A stretch of DNA of 56,832 nt from Clostridiales bacterium (GTDB lineage: Bacteria > Bacillota > Clostridia > Oscillospirales > Oscillospiraceae), in assembly GCA_021202515.1 (NCBI GenBank), contig JAJQCW010000073.1:1-56832 (forward strand), written 5' to 3'. Below, piece after piece: positions 9,831 to 41,179 of this stretch; positions within the stretch are counted from its first letter, which is position 1, and each line of letters opens with the position of its first letter. The notes under the pieces were generated by a model. It made no database searches. It saw only the letters and a list, made by a program, of their open reading frames with translations, and had not been told where the DNA came from. Made by a program: the position numbers and the translations under genes.

Positions 9831-9930
9831 GGTCCCCGCCGAGACCCCCCACGGGCATTTCCTGCGGTCACAGCAGAAGAGGGTTCGGTGGGGACAGGCA
9901 GGGAGGTGCGAAGTGCCCTTGACGGCGAAT
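9831..9930. repeat. Decayed copy of the palindromic repeat family
   Basis: An outer inverted pair (GTCCCCGCCGA near 9832 and TTCGGTGGGGAC near 9885) encloses a segment with GGTCACAGCAG. It is followed by AGGCAGGGAGG, a small palindrome GTGCGAAGTGC and CCTTGACGGC. The same parts in the same order occur in the arrays at 26.74-27.12 kb (plus) and 22.56-22.87 kb (inverted). It fills much of the gap between pepF and the YesN gene. Confidence 0.6.
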
Positions 9931-10038: not shown

Positions 10039-11646
10039 ATGAGTCAATATTCAATTTTGCTTGTGGACGATGAGGAAGATGTGCTCCGGGTCATTTTGCG
10101 CAAATTGGACTGGGAGAACCTGGGCTTTTCTATCGCTGGCTATGCAAAAAACGGAAGAGAAGCGTTGGAGCTGGCAGAGGATTTGCAGCCCGATGTGGTG
10201 ATGACTGACATCAAAATGCCCTATATGGACGGGCTGGAGCTGGGCCGCCGGATAAAGGAGATCTGTCCCCAGGTCAAAATTGTCATTTTTTCCGGTTTTG
10301 ACCGGTTCGAGTATGCCCAGGAGGCCATCAAGCTGGAGGTGGAGGAGTATATTCTCAAGCCCATCGACGCCGACAAGCTGCGCAGCGTGTTCCTGCGCCT
10401 GCGGGAAAAGCTGGACCGGGAGCGGGCCGAAAAAAGGGACATTGACAAGTTGCACCAGTACTATATGGAAAGTTTGCCGGTGCTACAGGAAAATTTTTTC
10501 ACCTCCCTGATCGAGGGCTGCATCCCGCCGGAGGAGGTGGATCGGCTGCTGTCCAACTACCAGATCGACCTGCCGGGACCCTATTACGCGGTTTGCCTGG
10601 TGCATACCACTGCGGCCTCCCCTGACTTGGAAATGGAGCCGTTCCTGCTGGCGGTGTCCGTGAAAAAGCTGGCGGAGGAGCAGTTGGTGGAGCGTTGGCG
10701 GGGGAAGCTGTTCACCTATTTGGGGAACACAGTGCTAATCGCCCAACTGACGGAGCTGACAGAGGTCACGAGCCTGACCGACAGCCTGGACCGCTTCTGC
10801 CGCCTGGCTCGGCGGCTCTGCGGCGCGGCTGTCACCATCGGCATCGGGCAGGTTTGCGGCGACCTGCGGGAGCTTTCGGCCTCCTATGCCGGGGCGGTGG
10901 ATGCGGTGTCCTGTCGGGTGCTTTACGGCAATACCCGTGCCATCAATATTGCGGAGGTCGCCCCCGCGGAAGCGGCGGACGGCGACTGGGAACCCAAGTT
11001 TTTGCAGCAGGTGTTCCGGCAGATCAAGACCGGCAGCCGGGAGGACCTGGAACAGGCGGTTCACCGCTGCGTCGCGCAGGTGTCCGGCCAGGGGACCAGT
11101 CTGCAAAAGTACCGACTGTTTCTCATGGAACTGCTGACGGAGATTTTTCGCTTTGGCAGCAACAACCGGCTGAACATGGACCAGATTTGGGGCGAAAACC
11201 GGGATATTTACAGCGAGGCCCTCCAACTGGAGTCGCCGGAGGAGCTTGAGCGGTGGATGCTGGCGCTGGGGGTCAAAATGCAGGAGCTGATGGAGCACCG
11301 GCGGCAAAGCACCACTCGTTCTCTTGTGGACAAGGCTGAGGACTATATCCGGGAGCATTACGCCGACCAGTCCCTTACGGTGGAGACGGTCTGCCGGAGC
11401 CTGGGCGTCAGCGCAGCCTATTTTTCCACCGTGTTTAAGAAGGAGACAGGCAAGACCTTTATCCATTACCTGACGGACCACCGGATGGAGCAGGCGGTTC
11501 GCCTGCTGCTGGAGGGAGACGAAAAGACCTACGTCATCGCCGGGGAGGTGGGCTATTCCGATCCCAATTATTTCAGCTATGTGTTCAAAAAACGGTTCGG
11601 CGTCTCTCCCACCCGCTACCGGGCTAAGGAAAGGACAAAGGAATGA
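10039..11646 (+). CDS. YesN/AraC-type response regulator
   Basis: DNA-binding half of a two-component system. From ATG 10039 (site GAAAGGA upstream) it has 535 residues; an in-frame ATG at 10003 lacks a ribosome site. The receiver domain (1-120) shows the acidic pair DDEED at 10-14, phospho-acceptor D57 in TDIKMPYMDG and K106 in YILKPID. A middle region of about 280 residues has no recognised motif. The last 100 residues are a two-helix-turn-helix AraC domain (YIREHYADQSLTVETVCRSL, then VGYSDPNYFSYVFKKRFGVS). Its stop overlaps the kinase start as ATGA. The likely target is the mgl-type operon downstream. Confidence 0.94.
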   Translation: MSQYSILLVDDEEDVLRVILRKLDWENLGFSIAGYAKNGREALELAEDLQPDVVMTDIKMPYMDGLELGRRIKEICPQVKIVIFSGFDRFEYAQEAIKLEVEEYILKPIDADKLRSVFLRLREKLDRERAEKRDIDKLHQYYMESLPVLQENFFTSLIEGCIPPEEVDRLLSNYQIDLPGPYYAVCLVHTTAASPDLEMEPFLLAVSVKKLAEEQLVERWRGKLFTYLGNTVLIAQLTELTEVTSLTDSLDRFCRLARRLCGAAVTIGIGQVCGDLRELSASYAGAVDAVSCRVLYGNTRAINIAEVAPAEAADGDWEPKFLQQVFRQIKTGSREDLEQAVHRCVAQVSGQGTSLQKYRLFLMELLTEIFRFGSNNRLNMDQIWGENRDIYSEALQLESPEELERWMLALGVKMQELMEHRRQSTTRSLVDKAEDYIREHYADQSLTVETVCRSLGVSAAYFSTVFKKETGKTFIHYLTDHRMEQAVRLLLEGDEKTYVIAGEVGYSDPNYFSYVFKKRFGVSPTRYRAKERTKE

Positions 11647-22559: not shown

Positions 22560-22867
22560 GAACGCTCCGCAGGACAAGCGGGAGGGCGGGGGACGAGCGC
22601 CCCGAAAGGGCGGCGGGGACCGAGGCCCCTCGTCGGCGTGGACTTCATATCCGCCGTCAAGCGGCACTTCCGGGGCAAAGCCCCTCCCTGCCTCGCTTCC
22701 GGCTAAAGCCGAAAGCTCGTCCATTACCGTCAAGCGGTACTTCCGAAGCTGCGCTTCTCCCTGTCCGTCACGCCTCCTCTGCCGTCAAGCGGCACTTCCG
22801 GGGCTGTGCCCCTCCCTGTCCCAACCGAACCCGCTACGCTGGGCTTCGGTTGGGGCCCCATAATGGC
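22560..22867. repeat. Array of small palindromic repeat units (inverted copy)
   Basis: This non-coding stretch is a string of mini-hairpins joined by short constant linkers: GCCGTCAAGCGGC, GGGGCAAAGCCCC, a Ser-gene-like 30-base palindrome around GGCTAAAGCC, ACCGTCAAGCGGT, GAAGCTGCGCTTC, GGGGCTGTGCCCC, and finally a CCCAACCGAA...TTCGGTTGGG pair. Bases 22671-22763 are identical (93 bases) to the reverse complement of 26826-26918. The outer end (near CGCAGGACAAGCGGGAGGGC) also recurs inverted at about 27120-27160. Not CRISPR: units differ in length and there are no unique spacers. Confidence 0.85.
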
Positions 22868-22933
22868 CGGGGACCTTGGCCCCGGCGGACCCAAACCAGG
22901 CCAAACCGCCAGGAGCGGGGGAGCAGCCCGCCC

Positions 22934-24208
22934 CTACCCCCGCAACAGCGCCACCGCCACATCGTTGACATTTGTCCCGGTGGGTCCGGTGAACACCAGC
23001 CCGCCCACCGCTTGCAGGGCGTGATAGGCGTCGTTGTCCCGGAGGACGGCAAACACGTCCTTGCCGGCGGCGGTCAGAGCCGCCAGGGTGTCGCCGTCCA
23101 CATAGCCTCCCGCGGCGTCACAGGGGCCGTCGGTGCCGTCGCTGCCCACGGAGAACACAGCGGCCCCCTCCAGACCCGCAATGCCCGGTGCGGCGGCCAA
23201 GGCCAGCTCCTGGTTTCGTCCGCCCAGGCCCCTGCCTGTCAGGTGGACCACGGTCTCGCCCCCGGCGATATAGGCCACCCGTTTGCCCTCTCCCGCGTGG
23301 GTGCGGAGGATGCTGGCCAGAAAGCTGCCCGCCTCCCGCGCCTCGCAGCAGAGCCGGTCGGTGAGGAGAAAAGGCTCGTAGCCCAGCCTGGCGCAGGCGG
23401 TCGCTGCGGCGGCACACAGCTCCCGGACGCTGCCGGTGATTTGCGTCTCCACGTTGTCCAGCACCTTGGGGGTCTCCTGGTCCAGCAGAGCCAGCGCACG
23501 GGGGGACAAATGCAGACCATACTTTTCCACCACGGCCTTGGCCTGGGCGCAGGTGGAGCTGTCGGGGTAGGCGGGGCCGCTGGCGATCATGTCCAGCGGG
23601 TCGCCCAGAATGTCGCTGAGCACCACGCTGAACACCTGGGCGGGGGCGCACGCCTGGGCGAAGCGTCCGCCCTTGACGCCGCTGAGCCGCTTGCGCAGGG
23701 TGTTCATCTCCACGATGTCGGCGCCGCTGGCCAAAAGCTGGTTGGTGATGCTTTGCAGCTCCTCGCCGGGGATGAGCGGCTGCTCAAACAGGGCGCTGCC
23801 GCCGCCGGAGAGCAGGAACAGCACCGTGTCCTCTGCCCTCAAGGGGTACTTCCGGGGCTTTGCCCCTCCCTGCTTGCGCAGCCCCTGCACCAGCTCCAGC
23901 GCCTTTCGGGTCCCGGCGAAGCTGTTTTCATCGGGGACGGGGTGCCCCGCCTCATAGCAGGTCACGCCGGGGATGTCCCCCATGACGTGGTGGTATTTCG
24001 TGACCACCACGCCGCCGTCCACGTGGCCCAGCGCCTTGACAGCGGCGTTCGCCATCTGCCAGGCCGCCTTGCCTGTGGCCACCAGCAGGGTCTTGCCGCC
24101 GCGGGGCCGGAACTGTTTCAAAGCCCGCTGTACCGCCTCGTCCGGGAGGACGGCATGTAAGCTGGCGGAGATGATCTGGTCTGCTTCGCCCCGCAGTAGT
24201 TCATTCAT
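22934..24208 (-). CDS. Glycerate 2-kinase (type II, MOFRL family) with an embedded repeat unit
   Basis: ATP-dependent glycerate kinase, 424 residues from ATG 24208 after GGAGGGAAC; longer upstream reading lacks family similarity. Conserved parts are [24 protein letters not shown]-like [13 protein letters not shown], the phosphate-binding [48 protein letters not shown] and [15 protein letters not shown]. Residues about 112-125 ([15 protein letters not shown]) are encoded by a unit of the neighbouring palindromic repeat (23832-23872), inserted in frame just before the conserved [11 protein letters not shown]. Relatives have only a few residues there, so about 13 are extra, probably in a surface loop. 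Motifs are intact, so activity is plausible. Confidence 0.9.
23832..23872 (-). repeat. Palindromic repeat unit inside the glycerate kinase gene
   Basis: On the minus strand the 41 bases read CAGGGAGG, hairpin GGGGCAAAGCCCC, GGAAGTA, hairpin CCCTTGAGGG, CAGA. The same parts are in the array at 26.99-27.06 kb. The unit is read in frame without a stop. Confidence 0.85.
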
Positions 24209-24590
24209 AAAGTTCCCTCCCTGGGAATTGCTCGCTTTTGGCGTAGCTGCGCGGTGTGGTCGGCGTGGACTCGCCCCAGGCGCAGAAAAGCCGCCCTGTT
24301 CCAGCCGTTCCATGGCAAACGTCAGATGGCGCAGCAGCAGGGGACGGCCTTGCTTTTCTTTCAGCATAACAGAGACAGGCCAATATTGCAACCGATGTGG
24401 GCAAAATCGTCAGAATTTGCAGGGGTTTCACGCTGAAATTAACGACAAGGCCGATTCGAAGAGATAACCAGAAATTCTTTTTGAGAATAACCAGAAATAG
24501 AAACAAAATATTTGTCATCCTGCTTCCCACACGATAAAATAAAACCAGCGGAAGGCATCCGCAGGCTGAACAAACGAGGGGGAGGAACCA
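24209..24590. other. Intergenic region with two 12-bp direct repeats
   Basis: Between divergent glycerate kinase and acetyltransferase genes. ATAACCAGAAAT occurs at 24464-24475 and 24487-24498, starts 23 bases apart (about two helical turns), a spacing expected for tandem regulator sites. TTGAGA (24481 onward region) with a weak CAAAAT 17 bases later could be the acetyltransferase promoter. The part next to the kinase has an open minus-strand frame without recognisable similarity. Confidence 0.4.
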
Positions 24591-25160
24591 TTGACCATTC
24601 AAGATGTTATTGCGAGCTATTCTAACGAGGACACGGAGAACGAGGCGTGCAGCGCTTACGCCGATACCCTTTACCAGGAGGCGCTCCGTATCACGATGGA
24701 GCTGAACAACCAATATCACACTCGGTCAGAAATCCGGGAGATCATGAGCCGCCTGACCGGAGAGAAAATCGACGCCTCCTTCCGGCTGTTCCCGCCGTTT
24801 TACACGGATTTTGGGAAGAATATCCACATCGGGAGGGATGTGTTCATCAACTCCGGCTGTCACTTTCAGGATCAGGGTGGTATCGAAATTGGAGACGGCG
24901 CCATGCTGGGCCACAGCGTAGTGCTGGCGACCATCAACCACGACCTGGACCCGGCGCAGGACCGGAAAAATCACTACGCGCCCATCAGTATCGGCGCTCA
25001 TGTGTGGGTCGGCTCCAATGCAACCATTCTCCCCGGCGTTACCATCGGGGCGTGGTCCGTGGTGGCGGCAGGGGCAGTTGTGACGCGGGATGTGCCGCCC
25101 TACACGGTGGTCGGGGGCGTCCCTGCAAAAACCATAAGGAAAATCCACAAGGAGGGATAG
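24591..25160 (+). CDS. Hexapeptide-repeat sugar O-acetyltransferase (LacA/Maa-like)
   Basis: Acetyl-CoA-dependent acetyltransferase of the maltose/galactoside O-acetyltransferase type, 189 residues. The N-terminal helical part (residues 20-60) precedes left-handed beta-helix repeats: IHIGRDVFINSGCHFQD, the catalytic-His segment ATINHDLDPAQD, and ISIGAHVWVGSNATILPGV to VVAAGAVVTRDVPPYTVVGG. The start is TTG 24591, spaced correctly from GGGGGAGGAACC; no ATG fits. Its acceptor sugar is unknown. The stop is followed by a lipoprotein gene after one base. Confidence 0.9.
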   Translation: MTIQDVIASYSNEDTENEACSAYADTLYQEALRITMELNNQYHTRSEIREIMSRLTGEKIDASFRLFPPFYTDFGKNIHIGRDVFINSGCHFQDQGGIEIGDGAMLGHSVVLATINHDLDPAQDRKNHYAPISIGAHVWVGSNATILPGVTIGAWSVVAAGAVVTRDVPPYTVVGGVPAKTIRKIHKEG

Positions 25161-25161
25161 C

Positions 25162-26703
25162 ATGAGACGGTTCCTGGCATTTTTCCTCGCTGTCTGCATG
25201 AGTTTCGTGCTGGCGGCCTGCGGCGCGGAGAATTTAGAGGTCTCTTCTTCCGAGGGCGCGGAAAGCAGCTCCGTGGCAGGTGCGGAAGCTCAATCAGACA
25301 CCGCAGAGGAAGCAGACGGGGAAGCGTCTGACGCGGAGGCAGGCGAAACAGAAGGGGAACCCTCTGATTCCGACAGCACCTCCTCCGGCAGCCATATTCT
25401 GGTTGCTTATTTCTCCTGCACCGGCACAACGGAGCAAATAGCAGAGTGAATCGTAAACGAAACTGGCGCAGATAGTTATGAAATTGTCCCGGAAATCCCC
25501 TATACGGAGGACGATTTGGCGTATTATACCGGAGGTCGTGCTGACCAGGAACAGGCGGACGCTTCTGCCCGGCCCGCCATTTCCGGCAGCGTGGAGAACC
25601 TGGAGCAGTACGATGTGATTTTTCTCGGCTATCCCATCTGGCATGGCCAGGCGCCCAGGATCATCAGCACCTTTTTGGAGAGCTATGATTTTTCGGGCGT
25701 GACCATCATCCCCTTCTGCACCTCCCACAGCAGCGGCATCGGCTCCAGCGCTGAAAATCTGCACAGCCTCTGTTCCGACACTGCTGCATGGATGGACGGA
25801 CGGCGCTTCTCTGGGGACGCAGCGGAGAGTGAAGTGGCCGAATGGGTCGAAAGTTTAGAACTACCGGAAAGTGAGGCGCGTACCGTGGGAGAATTTGACT
25901 TTGAGACAAAAACTGTGCTATTGAACAGCGGCTATGAAATGCCCATCATGGGGCTTGGCACCTACAGCCTGAGCGATGAGGAGTGTGCCGTCTCCATCGC
26001 GGCCCTGCTGGAGGCGGGCGGCAGATTGATCGACACCGCGTATATGTACGGCAACGAGGCCGCAGTGGGGCAGGCCATCCGGGATTCAGATGTACCCAGG
26101 GAAGAAATTTTCGTTATTACCAAGCTCTATCCCACGCAATTTGACCACGCTGCCGCAGCCATTGATGAGGCGCTGGAAAAAATAGGGCTGGATTATATTG
26201 ACATGATTCTTTTGCACCATCCGGGGGACGGCGATACGGAGGCGTATCTGGCGCTGGAGCAGGCGGTGGCAGACGGAAAAGTCCGCTCGATTGGCCTGTC
26301 CAACTGGTATGTGGAAGAACTGGAGGAGTTCCTGCCTCAGGTGAACATCACCCCGGCGTTGGTACAAAACGAAATTCATCCTTATTATCAGGAAAATGAT
26401 GTGATCCCTTATATTCAGTCGCTGGGGATCGTGGTGCAGGGCTGGTATCCGCTCGGCGGACGGGGACATACGGCGGAGCTGCTGGGAGATGAAACCATCA
26501 CCGCTATCGCTGAGACGCATGGGGTTTCCTCCGCTCAGGTGATTTTGCGGTGGAATTTGCAGAAAGGCGTAGTGGTGATTCCAGGCTCCAGCGACCCGGA
26601 GCATATCCGGGAAAATCTCGATTTGTTTGGCTTTGCGCTGACCGATGAGGAGATGGAACAAATCAACGCCCTGGACCGTAACGAAAAGCACGACTGGTAC
26701 TAA
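25162..26703 (+). pseudogene. Lipoprotein flavodoxin fused to aldo/keto reductase, interrupted by TGA
   Basis: One frame runs from ATG 25162 to 26703 with a single in-frame TGA at 25447-25449 (codon 96). The first part is a lipoprotein signal (SFVLAACGAENLE), an acidic Ser-rich linker and the flavodoxin start HILVAYFSCTGTTEQIAE. After the stop the flavodoxin domain resumes (NETGADSYEIVPEIPYTEDD, FLGYPIWHGQAPRII). From about residue 245 an aldo/keto reductase follows, with tetrad residues in LIDTAYMYGNE (Asp, Tyr), VITKLYP (Lys) and LLHHPG (His). Restart at TTG 25516 would give a leaderless 395-residue product. Read as a nonsense mutation in a secreted redox fusion protein. Read-through cannot be excluded, but no selenocysteine hairpin is evident after the TGA. 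Confidence 0.82.
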
Positions 26704-26734
26704 GGCGCACACCAGAGCAGCTATCTACAGATTT

Positions 26735-27160
26735 CATGGGGACCCAACCGAAGCCTCCCCGCTGGGGATTTTCTTCGGTCACAGCAGCAGCGGGTTCGGT
26801 TGGGACAGGGAGGGGCTTTGCCCCGCAGGGAGAAGCGCAGCTTCGGAAGTACCGCTTGACGGTAATGGACGAGCTTTCGGCTTTAGCCGGAAGCGAGGCA
26901 GGGAGGGGCTTTGCCCCGCAGGCAGGGAGCGAAGCGGAAGTGCCGCTTGACGGCGGAGAAGCGCAGCTTCGGACAGGGAGGCACGAAGTGCCGCAGGGAG
27001 GGGCAAAGCCCCGGAAGTGCTGCTTGACAGCAGAAGTACCCCTTGAGGGTAAGTGCCCCTTGAGGGCAGAAGTGCCGCTTGACGGCGGATATGAAGCTTG
27101 CGACGATGAGGGGCCGCTCGTCCCCGGCCCTCCCGCTTGTCCTGCGGGAGTGTTCACGCT
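26735..27160. repeat. Array of small palindromic repeat units (direct copy)
   Basis: The array starts with CCCAACCGAAGCC and its partner GGGTTCGGTTGGG, with GGTCACAGCAG between them. Units follow of the form AGGGAGG + hairpin + GGAAGT + hairpin. Hairpins seen include GGGGCTTTGCCCC, GAAGCGCAGCTTC, GCACGAAGTGC, ACCGCTTGACGGT, GCCGCTTGACGGC, CTGCTTGACAGCAG and CCCTTGAGGG. 26826-26918 is identical to the reverse complement of 22671-22763. An open frame crosses the array but carries no family signal and is taken as chance. Confidence 0.87.
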
Positions 27161-39358: not shown

Positions 39359-41179
39359 ATGAAAACATCTCTGTTGTACCCCGTAAACTCCACTTCCCGC
39401 CGATTTTCCAGCCTGGACGGCATGTGGCGCTTCCAGTTTGACCCGGAGAGCGCGGGCGCTGGCGCTGGCTGGGCCAATGGTCTGCCCGATTCCATCTCCA
39501 TGCCCGTCCCCGCCAGCTTCTGCGACTTCTTCACCGACAAGGACAGCCGCGAGTACACCGGCGACTTCTGGTATGAGACCGACTTCTTCGTCCCCGGCGA
39601 GTGGCAGGGCTGCGAGCTGAACATCCGCTTTGGCAGCGTGACCCACCGCGCCCGCGTCTTTGTGAACGGCGCCGAGGTGGTCAGCCATGAGGGTGGTTTC
39701 CTGCCCTTCCTGGCCCCGGTCACCGACGTGGTGAACTACAACGGCATGAACAAGCTGGTGGTCCTGGCCAACAACGAGCTGAACGAGTACATGCTCCCCG
39801 CCGGCACCACCGGCGTCCTGTCCAACGGCAAGAAGATGAGCGCCCCTTACTTTGACTTTTACAACTACGCCGGCATCCATCGCCCGGTGAAGCTGGTGGT
39901 CACCCCCAAGGAGAGCATCGTGGACTACACCGTCAGCTATCGGCTGGACGGGGCCGACGCCTGTGTGGACTACACCGTGGAGACCAACGGCGATTCCCCC
40001 GTGGCGGTGGAGCTGTACGACGCCGAGGGCGCGAAGGTGGCCGAAGGCTGCGGCGCTTCCGGCACCCTGCTGGTCAAGGACGCCCACCTGTGGAACGTCC
40101 ACGCCTCCTATCTCTACAAAATCGTCATCCGCATCCTGGATGGGGACAAGGTCGTGGATGAATACTATGAAAAGATCGGCATTCGCACCTTCGAAGTGAA
40201 GAATCAGCGCTTCCTCCTGAACGGCAAGAGCGTCTATCTCCGGGGCTTCGGCAAGCACGAGGACGCCGACATCCGGGGCCGCGGCCTGGATCTGGCCACC
40301 GTGAAGCGGGACTTCGAGTGCATGAAGTGGATCGGGGCCAACTGCTTCCGCACCAGCCACTATCCCTATGCCGACGAGGTCTATCAGATGGCCGACGAGG
40401 AAGGCTTCCTCATCATCGACGAGGTCCCCGCTGTCGGCTTTATGGAGAGTACCATGAACTTCCTGGCCGCCAACCAGGGAAACGGCAAGAAGCTGGGCTG
40501 GTTCGAGAAGGAGACCACCCCCAAGCTGCTGGCCAACCACAAGCAGGCCCTCCGGGAGATGATCACCAGAGACAAGAACCACGCCTCCGTGGTGGCCTGG
40601 AGCATCCTGAACGAGCCGCAGTGCACCAGCGAGGGCACCGAGGCTTACTTCAAGGAGGTCTTTGACTACGCCCACGAGCTGGACGTGCAGAAGCGCCCCC
40701 GCACCTACGCCATCGTCATGATGAGTTTGCCCAACACCAGCAAGGGCTGGCAGTTCAGCGACTTCCTCTCCCTGAACCGCTACTATGGCTGGTACGTCAT
40801 GGGCGGCTATCAGATGAGCGACGCCGAGGTTGCCTTCCATCAGGAGCTGGACGGCTGGCAGGCCCTCGCCGGGGACCGCCCCCTGATCTTCACCGAGTAC
40901 GGCGCGGACACCATGCCCAGCGAGCACAAGCTGCCCTCCGTCATGTGGAGCCAGGAGTATCAGGACGAGTATCTGGCTATGAACCACCGGGTCTTCGACA
41001 GCTACGACTTCATCCAGGGCGAGCTGGTGTGGAACTTCGCGGACTTCCAGACCACCGAGGGCATCATGCGGGCCAACGGCAACAAGAAGGGCATCTTCAC
41101 CCGCCAGCGCCAGCCCAAGGACGCCGCTTTTGCGTTCAAGGCGCGCTGGGAGTCCCTGCCCCTGGATTACAAGGGCTGA
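39359..41179 (+). CDS. uidA: Beta-glucuronidase (GH2)
   Basis: Cytoplasmic retaining beta-glucuronidase, 606 residues from ATG 39359 after GCGAGG; the frame opens earlier without a good site. The GH2 jelly-roll and Ig-like domains occupy residues 1-275. In the barrel, the acid/base Glu is in VAWSILNEPQ and the nucleophile Glu in IFTEYGADT. The NxK motif that recognises the glucuronate carboxylate is in ANGNKKGIFTRQRQ, which separates it from beta-galactosidases. The active-site loop after VPAVGFMESTM is about as long as in the E. coli enzyme (loop-1-like). No glucuronide transporter or UxuR-type regulator is adjacent. Confidence 0.95.
   Translation: MKTSLLYPVNSTSRRFSSLDGMWRFQFDPESAGAGAGWANGLPDSISMPVPASFCDFFTDKDSREYTGDFWYETDFFVPGEWQGCELNIRFGSVTHRARVFVNGAEVVSHEGGFLPFLAPVTDVVNYNGMNKLVVLANNELNEYMLPAGTTGVLSNGKKMSAPYFDFYNYAGIHRPVKLVVTPKESIVDYTVSYRLDGADACVDYTVETNGDSPVAVELYDAEGAKVAEGCGASGTLLVKDAHLWNVHASYLYKIVIRILDGDKVVDEYYEKIGIRTFEVKNQRFLLNGKSVYLRGFGKHEDADIRGRGLDLATVKRDFECMKWIGANCFRTSHYPYADEVYQMADEEGFLIIDEVPAVGFMESTMNFLAANQGNGKKLGWFEKETTPKLLANHKQALREMITRDKNHASVVAWSILNEPQCTSEGTEAYFKEVFDYAHELDVQKRPRTYAIVMMSLPNTSKGWQFSDFLSLNRYYGWYVMGGYQMSDAEVAFHQELDGWQALAGDRPLIFTEYGADTMPSEHKLPSVMWSQEYQDEYLAMNHRVFDSYDFIQGELVWNFADFQTTEGIMRANGNKKGIFTRQRQPKDAAFAFKARWESLPLDYKG

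Follow-up and report, generated by a model that had tools for sequence, protein, structure and literature searches.

A double-hairpin repeat of 33 or 39 nucleotides, inserted exactly and without target-site duplication in the genomes of one Oscillospiraceae genus

Between positions 22560 and 27160 of a 56,832-nucleotide stretch from a Clostridiales bacterium (GTDB Oscillospiraceae; assembly GCA_021202515.1, contig JAJQCW010000073.1, positions 1-56,832 of the forward strand), called the window here, two inverted clusters of small hairpins are found with one intragenic copy between them. The locus raises the question of what these hairpins are and why their stems remain paired while the bases change. 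A sequence-only reading had described them as a family of mini-palindromes whose secondary structure is under selection. The family is confirmed and the selected structure is supported, and every stem pair named in that reading is present in the window; what went unseen is that two hairpins make up one mobile unit, as empty sites, an intragenic insertion and nesting reveal. This unit, termed AB, consists of CAGGGA, hairpin A, G, GAAG and hairpin B in that order, and totals 39 or 33 nt. Hairpin A occurs with five pairs and a loop of three bases (stems GGGGC, GAAGC, GGCAC and rarer ones) or as no more than GC-GNA-GC, and the five pairs of hairpin B, with mostly T-A or T-G outermost, enclose the loop CTTGA. 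A covariance model, as that reading had proposed, was built from 50 distinct copies, some window copies among them, and run on the window at a cut-off of E 0.1. It gave 13 matches, namely seven full A+B units, four A-only or B-only pieces, one weak match and one decayed copy, the latter within the interval (9831-9930) where such a remnant had been suspected (Table 1).

AB is a mobile unit that is inserted exactly, without duplication or loss of target bases. The intragenic copy of the window lies in a gene with the Pfam domains DUF4147 and MOFRL, which we take to encode a glycerate kinase. This gene was found in 19 of the 32 genomes of the genus and 16 loci were aligned, the window's own included. 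The 39-nt insert is present in the window genome only, and the other 15 genomes run through the site uninterrupted, with nothing duplicated or lost. In genome G015 the empty site reads CTGCGCAAG^GAGGACACG, and as the first and last bases of the insert are unlike the adjoining flank bases its boundary is unambiguous. Among the 184 A-B clusters in the fetched DNA of the genus, 27 have a matching place in another genome, and after merging of reciprocal records eight distinct sites have a zero-gap empty counterpart (Table 1); apart from four sites with unclear gaps, the remaining ones are occupied in both genomes or have grown. One shared site (L011 and L221) holds the 33-nt form in one genome and the 39-nt form in the other. 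At a GT8 glycosyltransferase locus, G000 carries a 78-nt and a 33-nt insert, both in frame, C.3_10 the 33-nt insert only, and G018 neither, with a different 39-nt copy further upstream. A looser comparison gave 88 pairs with gaps of -10 to 12, mostly in shared host repeats; the claim of mobility relies on the glycerate kinase, zero-gap and GT8 comparisons and not on this one.

The unit is found inserted between genes, in other repeats, in linkers of its own and within genes. Inserts of 33, 39 and 78 nt preserve the reading frame, and AB insertion is thus a route by which 11 to 26 residues can be added to a protein in one or two steps. Pfam-matched frames holding clusters are those of the glycerate kinase, two alpha-L-rhamnosidases, a GH130 enzyme, a GH3 frame at a contig end (four clusters) and the GT8 glycosyltransferase. 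In-frame insertion is backed by empty sites for the glycerate kinase and the GT8 gene, and in the other genes the open frame runs through the element. A Cas3-like gene holds two AB copies in different frames and may be broken. In the window's genome, 42 of 107 clusters are in a frame that stays free of stops for 50 codons to either side, many of these frames not being genes, and in long open reading frames (ORFs), called mechanically, ten elements lie on the same strand and ten on the opposite one, showing no preference for either. All five elements with a clear polarity of coding and GC skew are on the presumed leading strand (p 0.06).

Insertion of AB into the linkers of AB accounts for the AABB arrays and for the clusters that resembled separate mini-palindromes. 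At the site in front of the glycerate kinase gene, G022 has 39 nt, G031 78 nt, G027 117 nt and G001 147 nt. The 78-nt state has the form A[AB]B, in which the newer AB sits between the A and the B of the older one at G^GAAG, and in G027 another AB splits the prefix of the older unit as CAGG^GAG. AAB, ABB and ABBB arrays also occur in the window's genome and would take steps beyond this nesting. A direct A-then-B pair of unlike hairpins is the state of 74 of the 107 clusters there.

Both stems hold their pairing through compensatory changes. The copies were gathered by linkers and loop only, leaving the stem bases unconstrained, and 2,415,635 bases gave 97 occurrences of the 39-nt form (50 distinct) and 66 of the 33-nt form (16 distinct). 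In the 50 distinct 39-nt copies, 98.4% of the stem cells are paired against 85.5% after shuffling, and 71 cells are changed on both sides against 18.8 +/- 3.5; none of 500 shuffles reached 71, and slid versions of the stems gave at most 18. Double changes occur at seven of the ten pairs, a spread reached by 35 of 500 shuffles. Pair 3 of hairpin A is paired in 82 of 87 five-pair sequences (46 would be expected from the column composition), the pairs being G-C, A-T and C-G, and pair 5 of hairpin B in 244 of 280 sequences, chance matches included, against 183 expected. All four combinations of pair 2 (G-C or A-T) with pair 5 (G-C or C-G) are found in hairpin B, which speaks for repeated change or recombination. 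Most of the covariation separates discrete stem types, about five or six for each hairpin, which leaves far fewer independent events than changed cells.

Single-stranded DNA (ssDNA) rather than RNA is weakly favoured as the relevant form. The 39-nt forms have folding z-scores between -2.3 and -2.8 as DNA and between -0.2 and -1.3 as RNA, and GNA loops are carried by 46 of 48 two-pair A hairpins against 50 of 80 five-pair ones, the copies not being independent. A title in the reference list of PMC10527192 names d(GCGAAGC) an extraordinarily stable DNA mini-hairpin.

The genome of this gut bacterium carries about a hundred or more AB copies. It has 187 exact matches to the B-hairpin pattern GAAGTRCYSCTTGASRGY and none to the reversed pattern, and 93 clusters with both A and B were found in 741,078 fetched bases. 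The stretches fetched from this genome were mostly picked for containing matches, and the enrichment counts come from such stretches: CTTGA is flanked by a perfect stem of at least 4 bp in 113 of 1066 occurrences (10.6%) in 710,400 bases, compared with 0-0.7% for seven control pentamers (the eighth pentamer tested is the reverse complement of CTTGA), and of 684 CAGGGA occurrences 64 precede a 5-bp hairpin, compared with 0.2-1.3% for eight control hexamers. Exact B matches were found in 20 of the 118 genomes searched, the window's own included, all within the genus (20 of 32, against 0 of 86 outside it). Seven genomes are high-copy with at least 68 matches each (G000, G001, G015, G022, G026, G027 and G031, the window genome among them), and over a 297-residue piece of the glycerate kinase the other six share 93-98% identity with the window genome. 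Among the matches listed for public metagenome-assembled contigs (at least 108 loci), those with numerous matches are named Clostridiales or Oscillospiraceae bacterium, and the single isolated matches at many loci of unrelated phyla are presumably chance. A scan of viral contigs gave 26 contigs with one match apiece. Several of the contigs C6, C8, C13, C23, C42, C56 and C58 of the window's genome have a B match within about 200 bases of their start, which suggests that AB repeats break the assembly and that the copy counts are lower bounds.

Insertion takes place between a purine, usually G, and a GARG- or RAGG-like motif. A filter assigned 48 of 89 clusters bounded by A and B to other repeats. 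In the other 41, some of which are still in repeats, the 5' flank ends in G or A in 39 cases and the consensus of the 3' flank is RAGG. The element itself starts with CAGG, so that purine^NAGG is found at each junction. AB has often landed, at two different positions, in a larger repeat (CCCCTCTTGCCTCCCCTGAAAGGGGAGG...GGAGGGGTTTC) whose inner hairpins are exchangeable (L011, L023, L020 and others).

The lack of duplication, exact ends, orientation-specific target and kept folding would fit an ssDNA reaction of the general IS200/IS605 logic with the mover supplied in trans. We infer, at a probability of roughly 0.55, that AB is a non-autonomous bacterial double-hairpin element moved as ssDNA by a trans-acting enzyme. 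Recognition of the folded single strand by the mover would be what preserves the stems. An enzyme of HUH type or similar logic, encoded outside the element, would take the two-hairpin strand, both ends of which abut NAGG-like sites. The strand would then be joined into a like site on a single-stranded target at replication forks or transcription bubbles, which would leave no duplication.

Several observations weigh against this proposal. No mover was found among the families tried: PF01797 at E 0.001 had no match in the seven high-copy genomes (44 of the 118 genomes matched), IS110 none over the cut-off in the high-copy genomes, and Rep_1, tried for what we take to be a resemblance of CTTGA to an HUH nick motif, matched in one of 32 genomes (G014), which is not high-copy. 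The guide sequences of IS200/IS605 elements are complementary to their cleavage sites. On inspection the linkers of AB resemble the target instead of being complementary to it, so that guide pairing of this style is unsupported. The 48 repeat-borne clusters occupy a few fixed places and may have been copied along with the host repeat; the filter missed some such cases. Gaps are unclear at four compared sites (L344, L341, L345 and L164), and the nested site gives negative gaps in G026 (-19, no element) and in some G022 comparisons. Finally, neither the DNA nor the RNA energy model predicts the GC-GNA-GC hairpin of the 33-nt form, both giving a different pairing.

A view that retains the ssDNA hairpins and dispenses with a dedicated transposase is on the unlikely side. 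AB would then be selfish DNA of 33-39 nt, whose two extra-stable hairpins act as signals for survival and integration that the general enzymes of replication or repair make use of, and copies would exchange stems and loops as cassettes. Rather unlikely is an enzyme-free spread, in which stable hairpins provoke template switching or the capture of nuclease-proof ssDNA pieces at replication forks. The short NAGG-like motif common to element end and target would agree with it, as would the nested and tandem growth, the A hairpin present in both forms at one orthologous site and the lack of a mover among the families tried. Both ends are however exact at the eight zero-gap sites, some targets are nearly without homology to the ends (e.g. 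ATG^AAAG), and slippage alone does not scatter a unit over a genome.

That a REP-associated tyrosine transposase (RAYT) moves AB in trans as an unusual REP-like substrate is unlikely. Downstream of uvrB, the window genome carries a RAYT-like gene that remains under the family cut-offs (NF047646, 59.3 bits against 80; PF01797, 16.2 against 23), and AB and GTAG-REP counts correlate over the 32 related genomes (Spearman 0.54, p 0.001, uncorrected for kinship). The sequence-only reading had suggested a search for a co-distributed transposase; the RAYT-like gene, found by protein search in 13 of the 32 genomes, has no positive association with AB, being carried by 6 of the 20 genomes with AB and by 7 of the 12 without (Fisher p 0.15). 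It was detected in two of the seven high-copy genomes and not in the other five, and five AB-bearing genomes lack both a detected RAYT and any GTAG REP match. The uvrB loci of 30 genomes were inspected, one locus being truncated immediately downstream of the gene. There the RAYT-like gene is absent from high-copy G001, G015, G022 and G026; uvrB was not convincingly found in G030 and G031. The 6 kb fetched around the RAYT locus contain a single AB-like copy, about 2 kb off and on the opposite side of uvrB.

The structure also excludes AB as a GTAG REP. GTAG is at neither end in the 50 distinct copies, in which the linkers CAGGGA and GGAAG, most of whose letters served to choose these copies, are invariant, and the unit is a direct A-then-B pair and not an inverted doublet. 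GTAG REPINs (TGTAGGGGCGGCC..GGCCGCCC, e.g. L009, L012 and L017) form a separate family in the window's genome, with 154 REP matches at up to two mismatches, many of them as inverted pairs. AB has inserted into one REPIN copy and split it (L009, about 10573-10605), and the RAYT-like gene (L245:2527-3036, G000:C61) has a GTAG REP pair inside its own coding sequence. An apparent tracking of RAYT by REPINs in the fetched stretches was rejected, G026 having 192 REP matches and no detected RAYT. As REPs also fail to track a detectable RAYT (GTAG REPs in 8 of 13 genomes with and 9 of 19 without it), the distribution is compatible with loss of RAYT after spread.

Quite improbable is RNA-mediated copying, in which a 39-nt double-hairpin RNA would be reverse-transcribed into a nick, as suggested for the double-hairpin elements (DHEs) of Allomyces mitochondria. 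The absence of target duplication is in its favour, and the excerpted account of the Allomyces elements reasons likewise (PMC2800124). The reverse transcriptase domain PF00078 has one match each in G000, G026, G027 and G031 but was not found in high-copy G015, G022 and G001, the last being only 76% complete. That AB is a functional RNA element (a terminator, processing or attenuation signal) retained for host use is very improbable, for although the stems change in a compensatory manner and 65 of 107 clusters of the window's genome lie outside long stop-free frames, the insertions are lineage-specific, nested in one another, present in both orientations in long ORFs and in frame in unrelated genes, and no Rfam family attains its gathering score in the window.

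The sequence-only reading knew no named family of this build, and no description of AB was recognised among the matches listed for open-licence papers. Its nearest known counterparts are the DHEs of Allomyces, the GC clusters of yeast, the RPEs and CGTC REPs described below, and SDR5. The comparisons that follow draw on excerpts of the cited papers. Allomyces DHEs are sporadic between relatives and lack flanking duplications (PMC2800124); the 39-nt AB likewise has two hairpins per small unit and no duplication. By this secondhand description AB differs in being bacterial and chromosomal, with fixed unlike A and B hairpins, constant linkers and a constant loop, and it adds directly compared empty sites, self-nesting and in-frame insertion in coding genes. 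The GC clusters of yeast mitochondria (GC42) are hairpin-forming, mobile units of 42 nt that merge and shuffle (PMC4478555), and carry AG or ACT flanking duplications whereas AB has none. CGTC REPs, the Rickettsia palindromic elements (RPEs) included, are bacterial palindromes in coding genes, in frame in the case of RPEs, with no known dedicated transposase (PMC3733652, PMC10969869). AB shares the in-frame insertion with RPEs; these are about 150 bp long and CGTC REPs end in CGTC with stem rules of their own, while AB is a 33/39-nt hairpin heterodimer without this tag. CGTC occurs solely within the stem-loop of B copies with GCCG or ACCG stems, on the complement strand, and not in ACCC, GCCC or GCTG copies. 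GTAG REPs and REPINs with RAYT are small dispersed bacterial palindromes for which transposase-borne mobility has been proposed (PMC3116915), and AB differs from them by the absence of GTAG, the direct heterodimer in place of an inverted doublet and the lack of a positive RAYT association. The SDR5 units of Nostoc are very small, mobile and fold. They are precisely inserted within the HIP1 repeat (PMC4390886), whereas the sites of AB are purine-rich (GG^GARG).

The way in which the smallest palindromic elements (RPEs, CGTC REPs, SDR5, mitochondrial DHEs) are moved is an open question in the excerpted literature, for which AB offers a test case. Its mechanism is testable in that the copies are many and nearly identical, sister species supply empty sites, the target rule can be read, nesting orders the events and enzymes carry in-frame copies.

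Table 1. AB elements, pieces and weak matches in the window, and the sites with a zero-gap empty counterpart in another genome (window positions, or loci in the fetched DNA)
Feature	Position or locus	Strand	Evidence or remark
AB element, 39 nt, in frame (+13 amino acids) in the glycerate-kinase-like gene (about 22934-24212, minus)	23834-23872	-	covariance model; empty-site alignment
AB element (A GGGGC, B GCCG)	22652-22690	-	covariance model, 60.7 bits
AB element (A GAAGC, B ACCG)	22725-22763	-	covariance model, 63.6 bits
AB element (A GGGGC, B GCCG)	22780-22818	-	covariance model, 67 bits
Extra A hairpin directly 5' of the next AB (A-A-B array)	26806-26825	+	covariance model, 18.3 bits
AB element (A GAAGC, B ACCG)	26826-26864	+	covariance model, 63.6 bits
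AB element, 33-nt form (A = GCGAAGC)	26923-26955	+	covariance model, 46.9 bits
A hairpin (GGCAC) of A-A-B-B array	26974-26993	+	covariance model, 21.7 bits
AB element (A GGGGC, B GCTG), within A-A-B-B array	26994-27032	+	covariance model, 66 bits
B unit (ACCC)	27033-27051	+	covariance model, 21.7 bits
B unit (GCCC), linker shortened	27052-27068	+	seen in sequence; no covariance-model match
B unit (GCCG), array end	27069-27087	+	covariance model, 24.3 bits
Decayed AB copy, A and B both shortened	9899-9927	+	covariance model, 18 bits, E 4e-4
Weak covariance-model match	40039-40069		11 bits, E 0.06
Zero-gap empty site	window copy (23834-23872)
Zero-gap empty site	L020/L131
Zero-gap empty site	L023 (15395)		inside host repeat
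Zero-gap empty site	L330 (145)
Zero-gap empty site	L335
Zero-gap empty site	L088
Zero-gap empty site	L055		one base different at junction
Zero-gap empty site	L138		repeat context, 69% identity on one side

By eye, a further module (ends resembling CCCAACCGAA / TTCGGTTGGG) adjoins the AB clusters at about 26740-26806, 22826-22860 and 9831-9895, the third being a diverged form. Between the two inverted clusters, at about 25162-26703, a reading frame lies 5' of a second frame and is broken, as judged by eye, by an in-frame TGA at 25447; the two frames are presumably flavodoxin-like and aldo/keto-reductase-like, in that order.

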